From Paucibacter sp. DJ2R-2 (GTDB lineage Bacteria; Pseudomonadota; Gammaproteobacteria; Burkholderiales; Burkholderiaceae_C): 64,000 nt of DNA. The notes under the pieces were generated by a model. The model searched no databases, was not told the origin of the DNA, and saw only the letters and a program-made list of their open reading frames with translations. The stretch lies in the NCBI RefSeq assembly GCF_025717675.1, contig NZ_JAJIRT010000001.1, positions 1,426,001-1,490,000 of the forward strand, given 5' to 3'. Each line of letters opens with the position of its first letter. The first letter of the stretch is position 1. This document shows positions 1,955 through 29,226 of this stretch, one piece after another. The position numbers and the translations under genes are program-made.

Positions 1955-2206
1955 GCACCAGCCTGTGGACAAGGCTGTGGACGAAACTTGAACAAGTCAG
2001 GGCTTGTCCACAGGCCGACGGCGATCCGCCAAGTTGTTATCGGTCGAGCCGAAAGTTCAGGGGCAGGCCTCCACAAGCTTTGGAAGCTGCCAAACACTTG
2101 TCAGGACTGAGAAAATTGCGCTTGTCCACAGCCAGGGTTCACCCTTACTACGACTACCATTCTTAAAGTTCTAAATCCTTATTGATATTGCAAGGCGAAG
2201 TTTTTG
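1955..2206. other. Origin-like module A: DnaA boxes, DnaA-trio tract and AT-rich stretch
   Basis: A non-coding block between sulP and the queD-like gene. DnaA-box-like 9-mers are TGTGGACAA at 1964-1972, TGTGGACGA at 1976-1984, TTGTCCACA at 2004-2012 and TTGTCCACA at 2122-2130. TTGTTATCG lies at 2034-2042. Fourteen bases after the last box comes TTACTACGACTACCA (2145-2159), whose complementary strand carries repeated 3'-GAT-5' trinucleotides, the pattern called the DnaA-trio in bacterial origins. An AT-rich stretch (2160-2195) follows immediately, as expected for an unwinding element. The same parts recur with nearly the same spacing at 5481-5695. Origin function is inferred; no dnaA gene is in view. 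Confidence 0.6.
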
Positions 2207-3313
2207 ATGAACACCGACACCCTGTACTCCGCCTCCTGTGGCTTTGAGTCGGCTTGCCAGATTCCGGCATTGCCCTCGGGCCACCGCAGCCGCGGCTTGC
2301 ATGGGCACAGCTATTTCGCCACCATTCGGGCCCAGCTGCCCGCGGGCTGGGCGCCGTTTCCTGGCGCAGAAGTTGAAGAACTGCGGCGCCGGCTGGAAGC
2401 CTGCGTGGCACCGCTGGACCATGCCCTGCTGAACCAGACCATCGAACAGCCAACCGACGAGAACATCGCCCGCTGGATCCGCCAGCGCCTGGAACATGAG
2501 TTCGGTGTGCCCGGCATTCAGCAAGTGGGCATCCAGAGTACCCAGCACAGCGGGGTCGATCTGGACGTCAACGGCATGGCCCATGTCTGGCGCCGTTACC
2601 GTTTTCAAGCGGCCCACAAGCTGCCCAATGTGCCGATGGGCCACAAATGCGGCCGCATGCATGGCCATGGCTTCGAGGTGATCGTCCATGCCAATCAGGA
2701 CCTGGGTGAGCGCGACATCAGCATCGATTACGACCATCTGGACGAAGTCTGGGCACCCTTCCATGCCGAGCTGAACTACCACTGCCTGAACGAGATCGAG
2801 GGCCTGAGCAACCCGACCAGCGAGGTGATCTCGGCGTGGTTGTGGGCGCGCATGAAGCCGCTGCTGCCCGAGCTGAGCTGGCTGACCGTCTACGAAACCG
2901 GCTCCTGCGGTGCCAATTTCGACGGCCAGAACTACCGCATCTGGAAGGAGCTGACCTTGGACAGCGCCATCCAGCTCAAGGCCGCGCCGGCCGACAGCCC
3001 GCTGCGTGCCATCCACGGCCACACCTACACCTTGCGCCTGCACCTGAGCGCCGAGCTCGATGCAGTGATGGGCTGGACCGTGGACTTTGGCGATGTGAAA
3101 ACCTTGTTCGACCCCATCTTCAAGGCCATCGACCACCGGCCGCTCTACGAGATTGCCGACCTGCCCGATGGCGACACCGCCAGCCTGGCAGCCTGGGTGC
3201 TGGGCAAGGCCCGGGTCGGCCTGCCTCAGCTGGACCGTGTGGACATGTACGAAACACGCGGCTGCGGCGCCATCGTCAGCGTGGCCACCGCGGTGGACCT
3301 GATCCCGGTTTGA
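2207..3313 (+). CDS. QueD-like protein with three fused 6-pyruvoyl-tetrahydropterin synthase domains
   Basis: A 368-residue protein, three times the length of ordinary QueD (about 120). Three PTPS-like segments are visible at ~5-118, ~126-240 and ~244-360. The middle one has the complete zinc and cysteine set (His137, Cys148, His152, His154, and Glu230), but its usual Asp-His pair is replaced (LNYHCLNEI, residues 189-197). The first and third lack the cysteine and first zinc histidine, yet keep the Asp-His pair (Asp71-His72, Asp309-His310). QueD makes 6-carboxytetrahydropterin for queuosine and other deazapurines; queE follows 34 bases downstream, which supports that role. ATG 2207 is preferred over TTG 2204. 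Confidence 0.85.
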   Translation: MNTDTLYSASCGFESACQIPALPSGHRSRGLHGHSYFATIRAQLPAGWAPFPGAEVEELRRRLEACVAPLDHALLNQTIEQPTDENIARWIRQRLEHEFGVPGIQQVGIQSTQHSGVDLDVNGMAHVWRRYRFQAAHKLPNVPMGHKCGRMHGHGFEVIVHANQDLGERDISIDYDHLDEVWAPFHAELNYHCLNEIEGLSNPTSEVISAWLWARMKPLLPELSWLTVYETGSCGANFDGQNYRIWKELTLDSAIQLKAAPADSPLRAIHGHTYTLRLHLSAELDAVMGWTVDFGDVKTLFDPIFKAIDHRPLYEIADLPDGDTASLAAWVLGKARVGLPQLDRVDMYETRGCGAIVSVATAVDLIPV

Positions 3314-3347
3314 ACGCCTGCCGACGAGAACCAACCAGCACACACGC

Positions 3348-3983
3348 ATGACTTACGCCGTCAAAGAAATTTTCTACACCTTGCAAGGCGAGGGCGCGCA
3401 AGCAGGCCGGGCCTCGGTGTTCTGCCGCTTTGCCGGCTGCAACCTCTGGAGCGGGCGCGAGGAAGACCGCGCCCGTGCTGTCTGCAACTTCTGCGACACC
3501 GATTTCGTGGGCACCGATGGCCAAGGTGGCGGCAAATTCGCCACGGCCGAGGCACTGGCCGACGCGATTGCCTCGCGCTGGCCCGCAGACCGGCCTGGAA
3601 GGCCTTATGTCGTCTGCACCGGGGGTGAGCCCCTGCTGCAGGTGGATACGCCCCTGATCGAGGCTCTGCACGCGCGCGGTTTCGAGATCGCTGTCGAGAC
3701 CAACGGCACCCAGCCGGCGCCGGAAGGCCTGGACTGGATTTGCGTCAGCCCCAAGGCCGATGCCGAACTGGTACTGACCCGCGGCCATGAGCTGAAGCTG
3801 GTCTATCCCCAGCCGCTGGCGCGGCCCGAACGTTTTGCCGGGCTGGACTTCCAGCATTTCTTCCTTCAGCCGCTGGACAGCGTGCTCAAGACCCAGCACA
3901 TCCGCGAGGTGGTGGACTACTGCATGCAACACCCGCAGTGGCGCATGTCGGTGCAGATGCACAAGGTCATCGGCATCGAGTGA
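3348..3983 (+). CDS. queE: 7-carboxy-7-deazaguanine synthase QueE
   Basis: A 211-residue radical-SAM enzyme that converts 6-carboxytetrahydropterin, the product of QueD, to 7-carboxy-7-deazaguanine in queuosine biosynthesis. The iron-sulfur cysteines are Cys31, Cys46 and Cys49, giving the C-x14-C-x2-C spacing typical of proteobacterial QueE rather than the usual C-x3-C-x2-C. The N-terminal EIFYTLQGEGAQAGRASVF and the later CTGGEPLLQ match the family well. It lies directly downstream of the queD-like gene, so the two probably form an operon. A strong terminator follows at 4007-4036. Confidence 0.95.
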   Translation: MTYAVKEIFYTLQGEGAQAGRASVFCRFAGCNLWSGREEDRARAVCNFCDTDFVGTDGQGGGKFATAEALADAIASRWPADRPGRPYVVCTGGEPLLQVDTPLIEALHARGFEIAVETNGTQPAPEGLDWICVSPKADAELVLTRGHELKLVYPQPLARPERFAGLDFQHFFLQPLDSVLKTQHIREVVDYCMQHPQWRMSVQMHKVIGIE

Positions 3984-4006
3984 TTCAGCAATGGCCTGGA
4001 AGGCAT

Positions 4007-4036
4007 GAAAAAAAGGGAGCCGAGGGCTCCCTTTTT
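4007..4036. terminator. Rho-independent terminator after queE, probably bidirectional
   Basis: A perfect 7-bp stem, GGGAGCC (4015-4021) and GGCTCCC (4025-4031), with a GAG loop. TTTTT follows at 4032-4036 and an A-run precedes the stem (about 4008-4014). The T-run serves queE on the plus strand. The A-run would give a T-run on the other strand for the GDSL lipoprotein gene that ends at 4087. Confidence 0.85.
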
Positions 4037-4086
4037 GCTGTTCAGCGATTGCAGGGCTGAAACGCCCCGCTGCTGGCTTTTCTACT

Positions 4087-5235
4087 TCACTTCCAGCCCT
4101 TGGCAGCCAGGCTGCGGCCGATCAGTTCGGCAATCAGCTGGTGACCGTAAGGCGTGGGGTGGAAACCGTCCGAGAAGGCATAGGTCTTCCACCAGTTGGC
4201 GCCACCGGTGGCACCAGCCGGGATCGTTGCCGAGAGCGCGCCTGCTGTGCAAGTCGGGAAGGTGTAGGTCGGCAAGCCATCGGCACCGGTGCCGGTCTGC
4301 GGGCAGGCCGTGTTCTTGACATTGCTCAGGCCGTACTGGGCCGGGTTGGCAGCTTGGTCGTTGAGGGCGCTGTAGAAGTCGGCCACGGCCACGCGAGCCT
4401 GACCGGCAAAACGGGTGTCCAGGCGCTTGTTGAAAGCCGAGATCCAGCTCTTGAACAGTGCCTCGGATTGGGCGCGCGCTGTGGCACCGGCCGTGCCACC
4501 GCCGCTGGCCAGAGCGATGCCGTCCAGCACGCGCTGGAAGCGCGGTGTCACTGTGATGCTGGGCACGTTCAGGATCACCACCTGCTGTGCGCCCTTGTCG
4601 AGCACATAGCTCTGGATGCCATCGGCAAACTTGTCGGCCAGGGCTTCCATATAGGTCGCACCACCGGTGGCCATGCCCGCGGCGCCGCCGCTCATGATGG
4701 TGGTGACCTGGCTGGCGCTCAGCACCGTGCCGAGCAGCGCGGCGTAGGCCGCGGCCTTGTCGGTGGGGGCTTTCAGATAGGCGCCGACCAGGTCGGCCGC
4801 GTCATTGCCACCGCCGTCGATCAAGGCCAGGTCCGAAGCCTTGTAAGGGCCGGACAGGGAGGCTGTGATCATCTGCAAAACGATGCCGCGCGGGTCCGAA
4901 CCATTGGCCTGGTTGATGACACCGCCGCCGATGGCGTAGTTGCCGCAGCCGGGCTTGCTGTTGGTGGTGAAGGTCGTGCCGGTGAAGGCGTAGAAATTGC
5001 AAAGCGTGGTACCGAAGCCGGCAGCAATTCGCTCCGGATAGATCTGCGTTTCAGCGCCTTGCACGGTGAAACGGAAACCGAAGGTGCCCGAGTCGGCCAG
5101 GCTGTCACCAAAAACCTTGACGGCCATGATCTTGGCCGGCGCCGGAGCGTCAGGGATGGAGTCGCCACTACCGCCGCAGGCTGTCAGGGCCAGGCCGACG
5201 GCCAGTGGGACGAGGAGTTTTTGAAACTGCTGCAT
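4087..5235 (-). CDS. SGNH/GDSL-family esterase-like lipoprotein
   Basis: 382 residues. It begins with a lipoprotein signal peptide whose lipobox LTAC ends at Cys20, so the mature protein is probably membrane-anchored in the envelope. Block I (GDSLADSG, from residue 43, nucleophile Ser45), block III (GGGND near residue 145) and block V (DGFHPTPYGHQ, Asp356 and His359) of the SGNH hydrolase family are all present. The substrate is unknown; members act on esters of lipids or polysaccharides. It converges on queE and starts inside the edge of the second origin-like block. Confidence 0.88.
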   Translation of the reverse strand: MQQFQKLLVPLAVGLALTACGGSGDSIPDAPAPAKIMAVKVFGDSLADSGTFGFRFTVQGAETQIYPERIAAGFGTTLCNFYAFTGTTFTTNSKPGCGNYAIGGGVINQANGSDPRGIVLQMITASLSGPYKASDLALIDGGGNDAADLVGAYLKAPTDKAAAYAALLGTVLSASQVTTIMSGGAAGMATGGATYMEALADKFADGIQSYVLDKGAQQVVILNVPSITVTPRFQRVLDGIALASGGGTAGATARAQSEALFKSWISAFNKRLDTRFAGQARVAVADFYSALNDQAANPAQYGLSNVKNTACPQTGTGADGLPTYTFPTCTAGALSATIPAGATGGANWWKTYAFSDGFHPTPYGHQLIAELIGRSLAAKGWK

Positions 5236-5768
5236 GGAACAACCTTTGTTTGAAGAGTGGCGACAGGGGCCCGACTTGGGCGGCCCATCTTGGGGCTGAG
5301 GCGAACTCTAGGCACCAAGATGGTCCCTGAGCCTGCGTGTTTGCCCCAGAACAAGGCCTGATTTGGGCCAGAAACACAGAATTTAGAGTGATTCCTCCAA
5401 GAACTTGTCACACGCGGGACATGGGAGCGGCTGACGAGAACTTGTACGCAGTCCTGCTCAGGGCTGTCAAGGTACAAGCTTGTGGATAAAAAAAGGACAA
5501 ACCATGGCTTATCCACAGCTGAGATCGCTTGGCCCGACTTGTTATCGCTTCGTGTCTGGCAAGAGCAGGGTCGTACCCACATGGTTTGAAGTGAGTTAAG
5601 TCTTTGATATCAAAAGTGAAATGTTACTTGTCCACAGAAAAGTAGCCCCTCTACTAAGACTACCAATTTGAAATATTGAAATTGCTATGAATAAGAGAGC
5701 GGCCGAGATTTCTTGGAATGTGCACAGCCGGCTCCGGGCATAGCTGGGCCATGCCACACTTGCTCCCC
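5236..5768. other. Origin-like module B: DnaA boxes, DnaA-trio tract and AT-rich stretch
   Basis: A 533-bp gap holding the promoter side of the GDSL gene (5236 to ~5460, nothing else recognised) and then an origin-like array. Perfect DnaA boxes lie at 5481-5489 (TGTGGATAA) and 5509-5517 (TTATCCACA). TTGTTATCG is at 5539-5547 and TTGTCCACA at 5628-5636. TCTACTAAGACTACCA (5650-5665) is a DnaA-trio-like tract, followed by an AT-rich stretch (5666-5695). Spacings between successive elements are 28, 30 and 89 bases; in module A they are 28, 30 and 88. A 14-base stretch of the trio tract matches module A at 13 positions. Origin activity is inferred. Confidence 0.65.
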
Positions 5769-6083
5769 ATGGACATCCCAGACCTGCAAAAGCGCTTACG
5801 CAGTTTTGCTGCCGAACGTGCTTGGCAGCCTTACCAAACCCCCAAGAACCTCGCCATGGCCATGGTGGTGGAGGCTGCTGAACTGGTCGAGATTTTTCAG
5901 TGGATGACGCCCGAGGAATCGCAGCGCATTGCTGAGGACCCGATCAAGCATCAACACCTGGGCGAGGAAATTGCGGATGTCATGCTCTACCTGCTGCAGA
6001 TCGCCGATCACACCGGTGTCGATATGGCGGTGGCCGTGGAGCGCAAGCTGGCCTTGAATGCGATCAAGCACCCTGTTGCTTGA
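5769..6083 (+). CDS. MazG-like nucleotide pyrophosphohydrolase
   Basis: A 104-residue all-helical protein of the MazG/iMazG (RS21-C6, dCTPase-like) type. It carries the metal-binding acidic motifs EAAELVEIFQW and, about 30 residues later, EEIADVMLYLL. Such enzymes hydrolyse nucleoside triphosphates to monophosphates and pyrophosphate, often cleaning non-canonical nucleotides from the pool. The frame is open from ATG 5718, but homology starts at MDIPDLQKRL, so ATG 5769 is chosen; no strong ribosome-binding site helps decide. It is the first gene right of module B. Confidence 0.85.
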   Translation: MDIPDLQKRLRSFAAERAWQPYQTPKNLAMAMVVEAAELVEIFQWMTPEESQRIAEDPIKHQHLGEEIADVMLYLLQIADHTGVDMAVAVERKLALNAIKHPVA

Positions 6084-7535: not shown

Positions 7536-7570
7536 AACAACCAGCCGCCTTCGGGTCGCTGGTTTTTTTT
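7536..7570 (+). terminator. Rho-independent terminator after the GNAT gene
   Basis: Stem AACCAGC (7539-7545) pairs with GCTGGTT (7558-7564) and runs into an eight-T tract ending at 7570. A second GC-rich hairpin without a T-tract (about 7502-7520) precedes it. Confidence 0.85.
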
Positions 7571-7714
7571 CGCATAAATAGAATTTAAGTAACTTGTTAT
7601 TAACGATGACTATCCGTTGATGAGTTCGATTCAGTTTTCTTCTTTGATCATGGATCAGATTGCGTGCAAGGACGGGGTAAAGTAATGGCCCCTTACTTTC
7701 TGAATTGACGACAA

Positions 7715-8236
7715 GTGCTGGCCAAGCTGACTTCCAAGAACCAATTGACCTTGCCAAAAAGCGTGACCGAGCCCTTGGGGCCGGTGCAGTACTTCGAAGT
7801 GCACACCCAGGCCGGACAAATCATCCTCACGCCCGTACGGATCCAACGAGGCGATGCCCTCCGGGCCAAGTTGGCCGAGCTGGAAATCGACGCCAAAACC
7901 ATTGAGACCGCCTTGAGCTGGGCCGGGAACAAGCTCGCCCCTGCGGCCAAAAAAACGGCGGTCGCGAAACCGGCGGCAAAAGAGAAAGCGGTGTCGCGAA
8001 AAAGCGCGCTTGTAAAAGCACCCGCAAAAGCACGCGCAAAGGCGCCCACGAAAACGGCCGCAAAACCATTGAGTGAAGCCAAGGCCAAGCCCGCCGCGGC
8101 GAAGAAGACCGTCAGCAAGGGGTTGGCAAAACCATCGAGTGGCCGTAAAGCACCAGCCAGCAAGGCCAGCGGCAGCGCAGCCCTGAATGCCCGCCAGGTC
8201 TTCGGCCGCAACAGTGGCAAGGCGGCTGGGCGATGA
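7715..8236 (+). CDS. AbrB/MazE-type DNA-binding protein with histone H1-like tail
   Basis: 173 residues starting at GTG 7715. Residues 1-45 (LAKLTSKNQLTLPKSV, then a second hairpin ending ILTPVRI) are a swapped-hairpin AbrB/MazE/SpoVT domain, as in antitoxins and transition-state regulators. From about residue 70 to the end the protein is low-complexity: about one residue in five is lysine and three in ten alanine, with AKP/KAP repeats like histone H1 or bacterial H1-like proteins. The stop overlaps the next start by four bases (ATGA), so it is translationally coupled to a PIN-like protein, the usual antitoxin-toxin order. It may bind DNA broadly instead of a single operator. Confidence 0.8.
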   Translation: MLAKLTSKNQLTLPKSVTEPLGPVQYFEVHTQAGQIILTPVRIQRGDALRAKLAELEIDAKTIETALSWAGNKLAPAAKKTAVAKPAAKEKAVSRKSALVKAPAKARAKAPTKTAAKPLSEAKAKPAAAKKTVSKGLAKPSSGRKAPASKASGSAALNARQVFGRNSGKAAGR

Positions 8237-21777: not shown

Positions 21778-22689
21778 TCAGTCGTTTTTTCGCAGCCGTT
21801 CGATCAGGCCGTTGAGCTCGTCCAGCGAGGCAAACTGGATGGACAGCTCGCCCTGTTCACCGCGTTTGGTGCGCTTCTTGACCCGCACCTCGACCACCGC
21901 GGTCAACAGGTCAGATAACTCCTCTTCCAAGCGCAGCAGGTCGCGGCTCTTGTCACCTTTGACGCGCAGCAGCGGCGTCTGGCGGCCGGCGCCTTGGCGC
22001 GACACCAGCTTTTCGGCTTCACGCACGCTGAGCTTCTTGGCGGCGATCTCGGTGGCGCAGGTGATCTGGTGCGCGCCGTCCAGCGGCAGCAAGGCGCGGG
22101 CATGGCCCATGTCGATGTCGCCGGCCATCAGCATGTTCTGCACCGGCTCGACCAGCTGCAGCAGGCGCAGCAGATTGCTGGCGGCGCTGCGCGAGCGGCC
22201 CACGGCTTGGGCGGCCTGTTCATGGGTCAGGTGGAACTCGTTGACCAGGCGCTGCAGGCCCTGGGCCTCTTCCAGCGGGTTCAGGTCCTCGCGCTGGATG
22301 TTTTCGATCAGGGCCATGGCGGCCGCGGCCTCGTCCGGTACGGCCTTGACCAGCACCGGCACCTCGCGCAGACCGGCCAGCTTGGCGGCACGGAAGCGGC
22401 GTTCGCCGGCGATGATTTCATAGCGCACATCGCTGAGCGGCGAGGGCGGGGCGATCGGGCGCACCAGGATGGGCTGCATGATGCCCTGGCCCTTGATGCT
22501 CTCGGCCAGCTCGTAGAGTGAGCCTTCGTCCATGCGCGTGCGCGGCTGGTATTTGCCGGCCTGCATCTGCTCCAGGCGCAGCTGGCTGGGGCTGCCTTCG
22601 CGGGCGGCGGCTGCTTCCGCTTCGTTGACTTTGGGGCCGAGCAGCGCTTCGAGGCCGAGGCCGAGGCCTTTGGGTTTCTTGGTGACCAT
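21778..22689 (-). CDS. parB: Chromosome-partitioning protein ParB
   Basis: 303 residues of the ParB/Spo0J family. The N-terminal KGLGLGLEALLG is a ParA-contacting motif. The CTP-binding domain includes the arginine-rich GERRFR (95-100) and ENIQREDLNPLEEA, followed by an HTH (THEQAAQAVGRSRSAASNLL) and a C-terminal dimer domain. ParB loads on parS, spreads as a CTP clamp and directs segregation with ParA. Three parS copies are in rsmG and mnmG, 3.7-5 kb to the right. parA is not adjacent: argC and other genes lie between. Confidence 0.97.
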   Translation of the reverse strand: MVTKKPKGLGLGLEALLGPKVNEAEAAAAREGSPSQLRLEQMQAGKYQPRTRMDEGSLYELAESIKGQGIMQPILVRPIAPPSPLSDVRYEIIAGERRFRAAKLAGLREVPVLVKAVPDEAAAAMALIENIQREDLNPLEEAQGLQRLVNEFHLTHEQAAQAVGRSRSAASNLLRLLQLVEPVQNMLMAGDIDMGHARALLPLDGAHQITCATEIAAKKLSVREAEKLVSRQGAGRQTPLLRVKGDKSRDLLRLEEELSDLLTAVVEVRVKKRTKRGEQGELSIQFASLDELNGLIERLRKND

Positions 22690-22703
22690 GGGGCGATTGT
22701 CCC

Positions 22704-23249
22704 TTATGACTCGGCGCGCATCAGCTGGGCCAGCAAGACCTGACCCTCGGGCCAGTCGCCGAGGCCGGAGTCGGCATTGAGATGACCGCGCGGGCCAGCC
22801 AGCACCAGGCTGGCGCCCCAGTCCGCCGCCATCTGCGCGCCGCGCTCGGGCGCACAGAAAGGGTCGTCGCTGCTGATCACGGCGATGGCCGGGAAGGGCA
22901 GGCGGCCGCGCTGGATCTGGCGCCAGTTGTGCAGCTGCGGCGGGGTTCCTGGCGCCTCGGTGTCGGGTGGTGCCACCAGCAGGGCGCCGCGAACGCGCGC
23001 CGTGTGGCGGGAATGCGAGGCCCAGCTGGCCACCAGCTGGCAGCCCAGGGAATGGGCCACCAAGACCACGGGTTCATCCTGTGCTTGCAGCACCTCGTCC
23101 AGGCGCGCCATCCAGTCGCCGCGCAGCGGCCGCTCCCAGTCGGATTGTTCAACCCGCAGGTGGCCGAATTGCGCCTCCCAGAGGCTTTGCCAATGCCCAG
23201 GGCCGGAGTTCAACCAGCCGGGCAGCAGGAGGACGGTGCTTGCTTTCAT
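22704..23249 (-). CDS. RBBP9/YdeN-type alpha/beta hydrolase
   Basis: 181 residues with the small serine-hydrolase fold of the RBBP9/YdeN family. [18 protein letters not shown] at the start, the nucleophile elbow VAHSLGC (Ser67), SSDDPFC (acid) and GHLN (base) complete the triad. The substrate is unknown. It starts 14 bases upstream of parB on the same strand and may be transcribed with it, and it is divergent from argC (51-base gap). Confidence 0.87.
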
Positions 23250-23300
23250 TCGCTTGCCTTATGCTTTCACTTCTTTGAATTTGATTGTGCTGGAGAAGTC

Positions 23301-24245
23301 ATGACGTACGCGGTTTTTGTGGATGGACAAGAGGGCACGACGGGTCTGCGCATCCATGAGTACCTGGCCGCGCGTCAGGATGTGGAAGTGCTGCGCATCG
23401 ACGCTGACAAGCGCAAGGACTCGGCCGAGCGTGCGCGCCTGCTCAACGCCGCCGATGTGGCTTTCTTGTGCCTGCCCGATGCCGCTTCACGTGAAGCCGC
23501 GGCCATGATCAGCAATCCCAAGACCTGCCTGATCGACGCCAGCACCGCGCACCGCACCGTGCCCGGCTGGGCCTTCGGCCTGCCCGAGCTGTGCAAGAGC
23601 CAGCGCGATGCCATCCGCGGCGCCAAGCGCATCGCCAACCCGGGTTGCCATGCCAGTGCCTTCATCCTGGCCTTGCGCCCCCTGGTCGATGCCGGCCTGC
23701 TGGCGCCCGAGGCCTTGGTCTCGGCCACCTCGATCACCGGTTATTCCGGTGGCGGCAAGGGCATGATTGGCGAGTACGAGGCGGGCGGCAATGCCAAGCT
23801 GCTCTCGCCCCGCCCTTATGCCCTGGGTCTGGCCCACAAGCATCTGCCCGAGATGATGGCCCACACCGGCCTCAAGAGCGCGCCGGTCTTCATGCCCATC
23901 GTCGGCAATTTCTACAAGGGCCTGGCGGTGACCGTGCCTCTGCACCTGAGCCAGCTGCGTGCCGGCACCCAGGCCGAGCATGTGCAGCAGGCCCTGGCCG
24001 CGCATTACGAAGGCGAGCGCTTCCTCCGCGTGATGCCGTTGCGCGATGCTGACACCCTGGCCGAGGGCTTCTTCGATGTGCAGGGCTGCAATGACACGAA
24101 CCGGGTGGACCTGTTCGTCTTCGGCTCCGAGACGCAGATCCTCGTCATGGCCCGCCTGGACAACCTCGGCAAGGGCGCCAGCGGCGCCGCCGTGCAAGCC
24201 ATGAATGTGCACCTGGGTCTCGAAGAAAGCCTGGGTCTGGTGTGA
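23301..24245 (+). CDS. argC: N-acetyl-gamma-glutamyl-phosphate reductase, short (type 2) ArgC
   Basis: 314 residues. It reduces N-acetylglutamyl phosphate to the semialdehyde with NADPH in arginine synthesis. The N-terminal [12 protein letters not shown] is the nucleotide-binding motif, and the catalytic cysteine is Cys116 in NPGCHASAF. The length and GQEGTTGLR fit the type 2 ArgC group, which is shorter than the E. coli enzyme. ATG 23301 has GGAG at 23292-23295. It ends with a GTGA overlap with the next gene. It sits between parB and parA. Confidence 0.95.
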
Positions 24246-24694
24246 GCCCGGCGCTGCGCGGTGAGGCCGAGCGCTGGTGGCGGGATGAGGAGGTCTCGTC
24301 GGCGGCCGTGCAGGCCTTGCGCGAGCGCGTGCGCCTGTTCGGCCGCCAGCAGACCCAGGGCAGCGATGCGCAGGACATCGCCTGCGCACGCTTCGATGAA
24401 CAGGGCGAGCTGCTCTTGGGCGCCAGCGGCCGCACCGAGTTCCAAAGGCTCTACGTCGACTATCTGTGGGTCCGGGAGGACTTACGCGGGCAGGGCTTGG
24501 GCAGTGCTTGCCTGCGCCAGATCGAGGCCCAGGCCTTGCGTCGCGGCTGTGTCGACGCCTTGATTGAAACCCAGTCCGACGAGACGGCCGCGCTCTACGA
24601 ACACCTCGGTTATGTCTGCATCAGCCACGTGCACGATTTCGTGCCGGGCTTCACCCGCCACACCCTTTTGAAGGTCTGGAAACCGCGCGATTGA
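24242..24694 (+). CDS. GNAT family acetyltransferase, coupled to argC
   Basis: 150 residues. [20 protein letters not shown] is the acetyl-CoA-binding loop (R/Q-x-x-G-x-G), and [14 protein letters not shown] is the C-terminal GNAT motif. It starts at GTG 24242 inside the argC stop codon, so it is translated from the same message. The link to arginine synthesis may be coincidental; the substrate is unknown. Confidence 0.85.
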
Positions 24695-24710
24695 TTCGCA
24701 CTGGCACCGC

Positions 24711-25499
24711 TCAAATAGACGGTTCGGGAGAGCGGTAGTGGTAGCGGTAGGCGACGGCAAAGCCCAGATGACGATAGGCGCGCTGAGCGCTTTCGTTGTC
24801 ACTGCCGACTTGCAGATAGGCTTGGGTCGCGCCCTGGGATTTGGCACGCTCCAGCAGGGCCGCGCACAAGACCCTGGCATGCCCCTGTCCGCGCCTGGCG
24901 GGCGGCGTGAAGACGTCATACAGCCCCGCCATGGCCCCTTCGCAGGCCAGCTGTCCGCAGGCCAGCAGTTCACCGTGCTCATCGCTCAAGGTATGGCCTT
25001 GGTAGACCACCGGCGAGGCGAGCAGGCGTTGGGCATGGGCCTCGATCTCGACGGCGCTGGATTCGCGCAAGGCTCCGACCAAGTTTGCGTACGAGGGCGC
25101 GTCCAAGAGCTCCAGACTTTGGCCTGGGGGCAGGGCGGCGGGCAGTTCGTCCAGATGAGCGCGGACCATCACATCGGCCGCATCGAAACGGGCCCAGCCT
25201 TTGGCTCTCAGCGTGGCATCCAGATCAGCCGGCTGGGTGAAGGGCGTGAGGCGGACGATCAAGGGCAGGCCAGCGGCCTGGAAAGCGAGCTGGCAGCGCG
25301 ACAGCAAGTCGTCGAGCGGCAGGCTGCCGGCTTCCAGCGCATTGATGCAGCGCGAACGCTTGGCCTTGCCGGGTGAGAGGCGGATCAGCCAGCCCTCGAC
25401 GCGTTGCTGTTGGGGTGGGGCGCTGGCATTGAGCCCGGCCTGCTCGGCCCGCCAAGCCAGGTCCCAGTCGCCGGTCAGCAGCGCAGCCTCTTCGCTCAT
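24711..25499 (-). CDS. GNAT family acetyltransferase next to parA
   Basis: 262 residues, longer than an average GNAT; an N-terminal half of about 130 residues looks like a degenerate GNAT copy. The C-terminal domain has DVFTPPARRGQGHARVLCAA (acetyl-CoA loop) and NESAQRAYRHLGFAVAYRYH. ATG 25499 is the first good start; the frame is open to 25640 but would overlap parA. It starts 16 bases after the parA stop on the same strand and converges on the argC-GNAT pair. Confidence 0.82.
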   Translation of the reverse strand: MSEEAALLTGDWDLAWRAEQAGLNASAPPQQQRVEGWLIRLSPGKAKRSRCINALEAGSLPLDDLLSRCQLAFQAAGLPLIVRLTPFTQPADLDATLRAKGWARFDAADVMVRAHLDELPAALPPGQSLELLDAPSYANLVGALRESSAVEIEAHAQRLLASPVVYQGHTLSDEHGELLACGQLACEGAMAGLYDVFTPPARRGQGHARVLCAALLERAKSQGATQAYLQVGSDNESAQRAYRHLGFAVAYRYHYRSPEPSI

Positions 25500-25515
25500 C
25501 GCCGGCCCATTCACT

Positions 25516-26286
25516 TCACATGCTGCCGACGCGGCGCACCATTTCACGTGCGAACTCGATGAAAGCCTGGGCACCCTTGGAGGCAGGGTCAAACACCACG
25601 CCGGGCAGGCCGTAGCTGGGCGCTTCGGCCAGGCGCACATTGCGCGGAATCACGGTGTCGAAGACCTTATCGCCAAAGTGCTGCTTGAGCTGATCGCTGA
25701 CCTGGTTCTGCAGGGTGATGCGCGGGTCGAACATCACCCGCAGCAGGCCAATGATCTGCAGGTCGGCATTGAGATTGGCATGCACCTGCTTGATGGTGTT
25801 GACCAGGTCCGAGAGGCCTTCCAGCGCGAAGTACTCGCACTGCATGGGCACGACCACGCCGTGGGCGCAGCAGAGGCCGTTCAGCGTCAGCATGGACAGC
25901 GAAGGCGGGCAGTCGATCAAGACGAAGTCGTAGTCGTCGTTGGCGGCAGCGAGGGCGCCCTTGAGGCGGCGTTCGCGGCGCTCCAAATCAACCAGCTCGA
26001 CTTCGGCGCCGGCCAGTTCACGGTTGGCGCCCAGCACGTCGTAGCCGACCTTCTCGCTGGTCTGCTTGGCTTCCTTGACCGAGGCCGATTCCAGCAGCAC
26101 GTCGTAGACGCTGAGCTCCAGCGCGCGCTTGTCGATGCCCGAGCCCATGGTGGCATTGCCCTGCGGGTCCAGGTCCACCACCAACACGCGCTGGCCGACC
26201 TTGGCCAGGCCGGCGGCGAGGTTGACGGTGGTGGTGGTCTTGCCGACCCCGCCCTTTTGGTTGGCAACGCAGAAGATCTTGGCCAT
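25516..26286 (-). CDS. parA: Chromosome-partitioning ATPase ParA
   Basis: 256 residues of the ParA/Soj family. The deviant Walker A motif KGGVGKTTT begins at residue 11; VLIDCPPSLSMLTLNGL and the DPRITLQNQVS region are conserved. ParA binds nucleoid DNA as an ATP dimer and moves the ParB-parS complex. rsmG is 92 bases upstream. The usual parB partner is 2.8 kb away instead of directly downstream. Confidence 0.97.
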   Translation of the reverse strand: MAKIFCVANQKGGVGKTTTTVNLAAGLAKVGQRVLVVDLDPQGNATMGSGIDKRALELSVYDVLLESASVKEAKQTSEKVGYDVLGANRELAGAEVELVDLERRERRLKGALAAANDDYDFVLIDCPPSLSMLTLNGLCCAHGVVVPMQCEYFALEGLSDLVNTIKQVHANLNADLQIIGLLRVMFDPRITLQNQVSDQLKQHFGDKVFDTVIPRNVRLAEAPSYGLPGVVFDPASKGAQAFIEFAREMVRRVGSM

Positions 26287-26378
26287 GGTCTCGTTTTTCT
26301 AAGCAGGCGTGATGGTAGCTGCAGAAGGGTCGTGCTTTTGTGGCGAGGCGTGTACGCGGCCGCGCGCGGCACACATTT

Positions 26379-27059
26379 TCAGGCCTTGGGGCGAATCCAA
26401 ATCAGGCAGCGCTGGGCATCGAGGCCGGGCACCTGCAGTTGTTCCACGTGAAACACATCCAAGTCGGCGGGCAAGGCGGCCAGCTCATCGCTCGGATGTT
26501 GGCCCTTCATGGCCAGCCAAATCGCCCCGGAATCGGCGCCGGGCTTGAGGTGCTGGCGGGTCAAGGTCGTGAAGTCCAGCAGAGATGCAAAGGCACGCGA
26601 GGTGATCAGGTCGAAGGGCGAGGTGTTCAGCGCTTCGACGCGTGAATGCTCGCCATGCAGATTGGGCAGACGCAGCTCGGCCGCCACCTGCTTGATGAAG
26701 CTGGCCTTCTTGGCCACGGCGTCCACACAAGTGACATCGATGTTCGGTTCGCAGATGGCCACCACCACGCCTGGCAAGCCACCGCCGCTGCCCACGTCCA
26801 TCAGTCGCAAGCTGCTTTGCCCGCTGCTCTGGCTGTGGCGCCGCAGGGCGGGCAGCAGGCTGAGGCTGTCGACCAGATGCTGGGTCAGCATGGCCTGGGG
26901 TTCGCGTACGGCGGTCAGGTTGTAGACCTTGTTCCACTTGCTGATCATGGCCAAGTAGGCCAGCAGCCTGTCGATCTGGGCGTCGCCGAGGCTGAGCTTC
27001 AAGGTGTCGGCGGCGGCGACCAGGGTAGGGCGCAAAGTGGACCAGGTGTCGTCAATCAT
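26379..27059 (-). CDS. rsmG: 16S rRNA (guanine(527)-N7)-methyltransferase RsmG
   Basis: 226 residues. It methylates N7 of G527 in 16S rRNA using S-adenosylmethionine. The cofactor motif LMDVGSGGGLPG is at 87-98, and KWNKVYNLTAVREPQAMLTQ and PFDLITSRAFASL are conserved. It follows mnmG (59-base gap) in the classical gidA-gidB order. A near-perfect parS lies inside it at 26440-26455. Confidence 0.96.
   Translation of the reverse strand: MIDDTWSTLRPTLVAAADTLKLSLGDAQIDRLLAYLAMISKWNKVYNLTAVREPQAMLTQHLVDSLSLLPALRRHSQSSGQSSLRLMDVGSGGGLPGVVVAICEPNIDVTCVDAVAKKASFIKQVAAELRLPNLHGEHSRVEALNTSPFDLITSRAFASLLDFTTLTRQHLKPGADSGAIWLAMKGQHPSDELAALPADLDVFHVEQLQVPGLDAQRCLIWIRPKA
26440..26455. other. parS site, one mismatch
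   Basis: TGTTCCACGTGAAACA differs at one position from the consensus TGTTTCACGTGAAACA. It lies within the coding sequence of rsmG. Confidence 0.8.
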
Positions 27060-27118
27060 CGAAATCGGGTTCCGGGTGAAATGGGGGGTGGTGAAGGCAG
27101 TGAAGCGCTGTGCTCGAC

Positions 27119-29104
<1,986 letters not shown>

Positions 29105-29217: not shown

Positions 29218-29226
29218 TGTGGATAA
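29218..29226 (-). promoter_or_regulatory. Isolated DnaA box upstream of mnmG
   Basis: TGTGGATAA, a perfect DnaA box (TTATCCACA on the minus strand), lies in the divergent gap between mnmG and the YkgJ-like gene. No second box, trio tract or AT-rich stretch accompanies it, so control of mnmG by DnaA is more likely than origin function. Confidence 0.45.

Follow-up and report, generated by a model that had tools for sequence, protein, structure and literature searches.

Two homologous origin-like modules beside queD and a mazG-like gene as the probable chromosomal replication origin of Paucibacter sp. DJ2R-2

The window analysed here is a stretch of 64,000 nucleotides (G000:C1:1426001-1490000) from Paucibacter sp. 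DJ2R-2 (G000), whose genome of 5.8 Mb is assembled in 47 contigs. Near its start lie two modules, A and B, that resemble the core of a chromosomal replication origin (oriC). Module A has a SulP-type sulfate permease gene (266-1954) on one side and a PTPS/QueD-like gene (2207-3313) on the other, and module B lies between a GDSL lipase gene on the minus strand (4087-5235) and a MazG-like gene (5718-6083). The two modules have the same orientation and are about 3.5 kb apart, the pair spanning 3.7 kb. The closest named relatives of the strain by QueD protein were a 'Rubrivivax sp.' metagenome-assembled genome and Burkholderiales bacterium PBB2 (99% identity), followed by Paucibacter and Roseateles at 88% and below. 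The features of the modules and their neighbours are listed in window positions; R1 and the leave-out profile are the two sequence models described below.

1971..2200, plus strand: module A as a whole (boxes, trio-like tract and AT-rich candidate DNA unwinding element, DUE); R1 115.7 bits, E 3.7e-33; leave-out E 7.9e-31
1964..1972, minus strand: extra strong inverted DnaA box of A, TTGTCCACA, 40 bases before the direct box
1976..1984, minus strand: weak inverted DnaA box of A, TCGTCCACA, in the conserved 28-base register
2004..2012, plus strand: direct DnaA box of A, TTGTCCACA, 28 bases after the inverted box at 1976
2034..2042, plus strand: conserved TTGTTATCG element of A, with TTGTT nearly invariant; candidate low-affinity DnaA site
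2072..2100, plus strand: conserved CACA..CTT and CAAGT..TTG elements of A, with invariant columns 2072-2075, 2079-2080, 2092-2093 and 2100; candidate low-affinity sites
2122..2130, plus strand: direct DnaA box of A beside the unwinding region, TTGTCCACA, 88 bases past TTGTTATCG
2145..2159, plus strand: DnaA-trio-like period-3 tract of A, TTACTACGACTACCA, an interrupted trio run after a 14-base spacer (letters at 2146-2159, TACTACGACTACCA)
2160..2200, plus strand: AT-rich candidate DUE of A, 68% AT against a window mean of 34%
5476..5696, plus strand: module B as a whole; R1 113.2 bits, E 2.3e-32; leave-out E 2.6e-28
5481..5489, minus strand: inverted DnaA box of B, TTATCCACA
5509..5517, plus strand: direct DnaA box of B, TTATCCACA, 28 bases after the inverted box
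5539..5547, plus strand: TTGTTATCG element of B
5578..5606, plus strand: conserved CACA..TT and AAGT..TTG elements of B
5628..5636, plus strand: direct DnaA box of B beside the unwinding region, TTGTCCACA, 89 bases past TTGTTATCG
5651..5665, plus strand: DnaA-trio-like tract of B, CTACTAAGACTACCA, after a 14-base spacer (letters at 5652-5665, TACTAAGACTACCA)
5666..5696, plus strand: AT-rich candidate DUE of B, 81% AT
2207..3313, plus strand: QueD-like protein of the PTPS family (three matched stretches), neighbour of module A
3348..3983, plus strand: radical-SAM protein, probably QueE
5718..6083, plus strand: MazG-like nucleotide pyrophosphohydrolase, neighbour of module B

The array common to A and B consists of an inverted DnaA box, a direct box at +28, TTGTTATCG, a second direct box at +118/119, a period-3 CTACTA tract and an AT-rich stretch. 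A cluster of intergenic DnaA boxes beside an AT-rich stretch, the arrangement by which an oriC is recognised, is present at both places. The letters and spacings on which a preliminary description had based two modules with the same motifs and geometry were found in the window, with one amendment: the inverted box of A, said to lie 28 bases before the direct box, corresponds to the weak box at 1976, which is in that register, but the strong box at 1964 sits 40 bases before the direct box. The spacer between the last box and the tract is 14 bases in both modules, within the limit of at most 16 bp given for a basal unwinding system (PMC8287927). Its GC content is 67% in A and only 53% in B.

Both strands of the window were searched, and the full geometry was found only at A and B. 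In 200 random copies drawn from a first-order Markov model of the window, each searched on one strand, not even two direct boxes 117-120 apart occurred. The loci of 80 relatives were collected by their QueD protein, which partly builds a link between A and queD into the sample, and a module was scored as present in a locus where two direct DnaA boxes lay 117-120 apart. These loci held 76 modules, giving 78 with the two in the window. R1 is a sequence-only model made from an alignment of 40 of the 78 modules, the window's own A and B included, and the leave-out profile was made only from 36 modules of loci L050-L103. Over the 5.8-Mb genome R1 gave only two strong matches (A at 115.7 and B at 113.2 bits), the next match reaching 15.3 bits; the leave-out profile, searched against 800 kb of the genome, found A, B and no other match. 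The columns conserved over the 78 modules comprise the inverted box, ACAA, the direct box, TTGTT..C, CACA..CTT, CAAGT..TTG, the second direct box, CTACTA.gAC.ACcA and an A-rich tail; the stretches between these columns vary.

R1 matched 285 of the 299 genomes drawn from the family. Fifty-eight matching genomes were picked for their few contigs; dnaA was placed in all 58, and R1 was rerun on 40 of them, which match by selection. The module lay within 0.2 kb behind dnaA in 15 of these 40, and the nearest module was 16-459 kb from dnaA in another 23. G073 and G121 fell outside both classes; in the latter, whose record starts at dnaA, one module is 13 kb away and a second is close to the opposite end. 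Among 29 fetched loci, five had the module between the DnaA and DnaN matches. In G000, dnaA is 62 kb from the modules, and the R1 scan found no module at dnaA, only A and B scoring above 16 bits. Since the module stands behind dnaA in some relatives and is displaced in others, it appears to be the ordinary oriC of the family, often moved off dnaA. A class sample of 185 genomes gave 39 matches to R1 at E <= 0.01 or, without G000 and the family member G114, 37 of 183, the best at 45.8 bits. The strong module is confined to the family in this sample, and the weak class matches may be ordinary oriC sequences or chance.

More than one match was counted in 93 of the 285 matching genomes, a few of the matches being weak or partial. 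These 93 genomes held 195 matches, and 88 of them had two on one contig. Neighbouring pairs on one contig had the same orientation in 81 of 91 cases, at a median spacing of 3.2 kb and a range of 0.3 to more than 20 kb; the pairs include that of G038, a weak overlapping match, and that of G121, which spans its record. Three modules each were present in G052, G168 and G246 (all three genomes sampled from genus g52), with two of the three about 100 kb apart on one contig, and genus g51 had three modules in G167 and G245 and two in G051. Twin cores were also seen at the canonical place: G174 and G062 (loci L128 and L122) carry tandem modules about 0.31 kb apart inside the dnaA-dnaN gap. G159 (L130) has two modules 0.28 kb apart in the same gap in opposite orientation, an exception to the rule of same orientation.

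The GC-skew minimum over 400 kb of G000 was at 1,429,904, between A (1,427,971) and B (1,431,476). A step fit on 400 two-kilobase bins gave 1,430,001 as the switch point, with a permutation p of 0.001; a step at dnaA was worse by 7.3 ln units. The fit was also run on seven other genomes. For G058, and for the flanks of G000, G007 and G164, the sequence used was sampled and not continuous, and the likelihood drops of G075 at dnaA and of G015 at its module, which stem from a masked step of the wrong sign, are disregarded. In G007, G072 and G058 the fitted switch was near displaced modules, 86-460 kb from dnaA (p 0.001-0.016). It fell at 1,610,001 in G007 (modules at 1,604,605 and 1,608,071; dnaA worse by 8.1 ln units), at 388,001 in G072 (modules at 394,659 and 398,844; dnaA worse by 11.1) and at 1,786,001 in G058, at the single module 1,785,696, which is 459 kb from dnaA (p 0.016; dnaA worse by 6.8). 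The preliminary description had named a dnaA-linked origin, with the skew minimum far from this region, as one observation that would count against it; we looked for both and found no module at dnaA and a skew switch at A/B.

The chromosome partition genes and sites lie in the same window.

26440, 27470 and 27659 (26440..27674), no strand assigned: three parS sites
21778..22689, minus strand: parB, in the partition cluster (21778..29104)
25516..26286, minus strand: parA
26379..27059, minus strand: rsmG/gidB
27119..29104, minus strand: mnmG/gidA

With up to one mismatch allowed, the genome has no parS sites other than these three (the reversed pattern, used as a control, gave one match), which lie 21-26 kb from the modules and 88-90 kb from dnaA. 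In the examined stretches of G000, G007, G072, G075 and G015, parS was 21-31 kb from a module, and in G072 it was about 284 kb from dnaA. G004 had parS 14-48 kb from its three modules, and no parS was detected in 80 kb of G164. The gidA gene adjoins oriC in Escherichia coli; mnmG/gidA here is 21-27 kb from the modules, beside parS. Within the partition cluster the end of parA overlaps with a GNAT gene, which a semialdehyde-dehydrogenase-like gene separates from parB. Some 114 bases upstream of mnmG/gidA, at 29218-29226 on the minus strand, there is a perfect DnaA box, TTATCCACA, but none of the other module elements.

Both modules were detected in 26 of the 80 loci, A without B in 5, B without A in 19 and neither in 30; the contig ends before the site in four of the five loci with A without B and in some of the 30 with neither. 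Lack of conservation of either module in close relatives was the other result that the preliminary description would have taken as refuting; the loci show that both modules are conserved. Module A was upstream of queD in all 31 loci that contain it, as loci collected via QueD would favour, and in 42 of the 45 loci with B the next gene downstream of it is mazG-like. The exceptions are L038 and L039, in which an esterase gene intervenes, and L043, which has no MazG match. The distance from A to B in these loci was about 2.0 to 7.3 kb, and the stretch between them varies. The suggestion of a twin origin that flanks queuosine genes is supported as regards the twin origin, but the queuosine genes look incidental, the fixed neighbours being queD for A and the mazG-like gene for B.

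The descent of the pair was examined in 26 two-module genomes (the window and 25 loci, with the near-copies L024 and L025 excluded). A and B of the same genome had a mean identity of 56% (48-63%). The nearest A ortholog was closer than the genome's own B in 25 of the 26 genomes (L026 being the exception), and the nearest B ortholog was closer than its own A in all 26; in G000, A and B were 53% identical and the nearest orthologs reached 62% and 65%. We infer from these sequence identities that the A/B pair predates these species and that the two modules have had a long separate descent without homogenisation. Parsimony gave five changes for the presence of A and five for the presence of B on a quick QueD tree of 76 rows, which has many open forks, leaves out L024, L025, L046, L089 and L101, and includes some rows scored as having no module that end before the B site.

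Whole-genome searches identified relatives with a single module. A alone was present, beside queD, in G111 and G206, and B alone, beside mazG or its neighbours, in G030, G156 and G238 (genus g30), G067 and G084. Completeness was 94% for G067, 86% for G084 and 99-100% for the other five, and in draft genomes an apparent lack of the second module may reflect assembly gaps or decay below the threshold. Locus L037, to judge by length and position, is the contig of the G111 module, and mazG there comes after queE with no module between them. Because relatives with A only, with B only and with both exist, either core probably suffices as an origin. That A-only and B-only relatives exist is also the chief reason for not regarding either module as a mere accessory of the other.

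We consider it likely that window positions 1964-5696 constitute the oriC of this chromosome, holding two complete homologous cores that point the same way and are separated by about 3.5 kb. Our explanation of the pair is held more tentatively: A and B may be independently competent, complete oriC cores that selection has kept for as long as a large clade (Roseateles, Paucibacter and Mitsuaria) has existed, with initiation possible at either, in a family that has repeatedly moved and multiplied one standard module away from dnaA. DnaA binding, unwinding, the sufficiency of each core and a choice of the core that fires are what we infer for such a pair. DnaA would bind the inverted/direct box pair of each core, extend across the weaker conserved elements as far as the last box, cross the 14 bases of the spacer and engage the period-3 tract, so that the adjacent AT-rich stretch opens and the helicase can be loaded. 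With both cores present, initiation may occur at either. The proposed opening steps are those of the published basal unwinding scheme (PMC8287927).

Several observations weigh against this interpretation. The published rule asks for at least three consecutive DnaA-trios, with the middle A on the 3'-GAT-5' strand (NTN on the plus strand; PMC8287927), and the longest run is two in both A and B, the tract being interrupted by a third triplet that is CGA or AGA. Runs of at least three trios occurred in 10 of 32 A modules and 0 of 46 B modules; 73 of the 78 modules retain five or more NNA triplets in a row in register, and deviant trio motifs are suspected to exist (PMC8287927). The skew in G000 is weak, with a bootstrap interval of 1,366,901-1,473,001 in which A and B are not separable, and it is weak in several relatives too. 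The step position agreed with the modules without significance in G075 (p 0.139) and G004 (p 0.153), no skew step was found in G015 (p 0.789), and in the canonical control G164 the switch was 25 kb off (p 0.068). The plain cumulative minimum over 200 kb of G007 was at 1,543,668, only 20 kb from dnaA versus 61 kb from the modules, whereas the step fit, made over more sequence, favours the modules. The skew minimum of a KOPS-like octamer (GGGNAGGG) was 21 kb from A; counts of the octamer were low, at 61 forward copies in 400 kb, and this marker was not used. The A-only class is based on two genomes of one genus (g111). Mean identities over all pairs barely differ (A-A, 0.559; B-B, 0.589; A-B in the same genome, 0.561; A-B in different genomes, 0.535), so the case for separate lineages rests on near relatives. 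Among the 73 strong R1 matches in the loci, the nine with the lowest scores all belong to A, and A may be under weaker constraint than B.

Two same-orientation clusters of DnaA boxes separated by genes could also form a classical bipartite origin, in which DnaA at A and B loops out the 3.5 kb between them, both parts are needed and unwinding occurs at one. The pairs in the family as a whole (two modules on one contig in 88 of 93 multi-module genomes, median 3.2 kb, 81 of 91 in the same orientation) would fit such an origin, as would the requirement of Clostridioides difficile for both parts in vitro (PMC7561715). We regard it as unlikely nonetheless: the known bipartite origins have the DUE in one subregion (PMC4285127, PMC7561715), whereas the tract and AT-rich stretch are in both modules here, the spacing varies from 0.3 to over 20 kb, and some relatives have A only or B only. 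These single-module genomes also weaken the earlier proposal of an origin plus a DnaA-titrating or regulatory decoy, which is the less likely reading. In that explanation, which we find rather improbable, one module is the origin and the other is a titrating or reactivating site (datA- or DARS-like) or a DnaA-controlled promoter of queD or mazG. Sites of the datA or DARS type are DnaA boxes without an unwinding element, apart from oriC. A and B do not fit that description, both having kept a tract and an AT-rich stretch that a titration site would not need, and the module stands behind dnaA in other genera. The end of each module just upstream of a gene, and the nine lowest matches of a perhaps less constrained A, are what a decoy or promoter has in its favour. 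A promoter or regulatory role alone was rejected as the principal explanation, as the module carries unwinding elements and is also found behind dnaA in other genera.

It is very improbable that the origin is in the dnaA-linked region (the dnaA-rpmH or dnaA-dnaN gap) and the modules are regulatory. The genes near dnaA that we take to be rpmH, rnpA, dnaN and gyrB were named provisionally, by eye. A perfect DnaA box and near matches are present in the dnaA-rpmH gap and the next gene, and the cumulative minimum of G007 is nearer dnaA than the modules, but G000 has no module near dnaA, a step at dnaA fits worse by 7.3 (G000), 8.1 (G007), 11.1 (G072) and 6.8 (G058) ln units, and the three parS sites are 88-90 kb from dnaA. 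Chance, or a recent functionless duplication, is scarcely credible given that none of the 200 Markov copies had the paired boxes, that 78 modules share their conserved columns, and that the identity between A and B in G000 (53%) is lower than that to their nearest orthologs (62% and 65%).

Bacterial chromosomes usually have one oriC, often near dnaA, and split origins have a single unwinding element. Twin complete cores as read here from the sequence would depart from these rules. Modules A and B resemble the Bacillus subtilis type of basal unwinding system oriC, which has a DnaA box, a short spacer, a CTA-type period-3 tract and an AT-rich stretch in the same order (PMC8287927), but they are 62 kb from dnaA, form two full copies and have a tract interrupted at the third triplet (CGA/AGA). 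They share with the bipartite origins of Helicobacter pylori, B. subtilis and C. difficile two DnaA-box clusters with genes between them (PMC4285127, PMC7561715). In those origins the clusters usually lie on either side of dnaA, only one subregion has the DUE, and lengths go up to about 2 kb (PMC4285127, PMC7561715); A and B, in contrast, enclose queDE and an esterase gene within a span of 3.7 kb, each is found alone in some relatives, and the pair appears to differ from known bipartite origins in that both halves carry unwinding elements. The oriC of E. coli is likewise separate from dnaA (PMC8287927) but has a single core. The oriC of Synechococcus lividus PCC 6715 is far from dnaA and dnaN (PMC6323995), displaced as it is here; that is a single case from another phylum, whereas displacement was found in 23 of the 40 few-contig genomes of one family.

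A literature search gave no paper combining 'Roseateles' and 'oriC', and the matches for oriC and queuosine were only unrelated work, judged on titles and the starts of abstracts. Among the matches listed there was, by the same titles and abstract starts, no paper on displaced or doubled origins in this family (the DoriC database, outside the search, may hold a record). A recognisable, aligned module makes origin cores countable genome by genome across the family. Species with A only, B only or both would constitute a natural experiment on why a second core is kept, how firing is limited to once per cycle when there are two candidate DUEs, and what links oriC with dnaA. R1 offers a direct way to place oriC in this family, in which placement at dnaA would be wrong in many genomes, and an oriC misplaced at dnaA could distort growth-rate estimates from read coverage.

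AT-rich sequence in this part of the window is not limited to the modules: within the first 8 kb, AT content measured over 40 bases is highest (up to 83%) at 7545-7767, in the gap after a GNAT gene, where there is no origin module.

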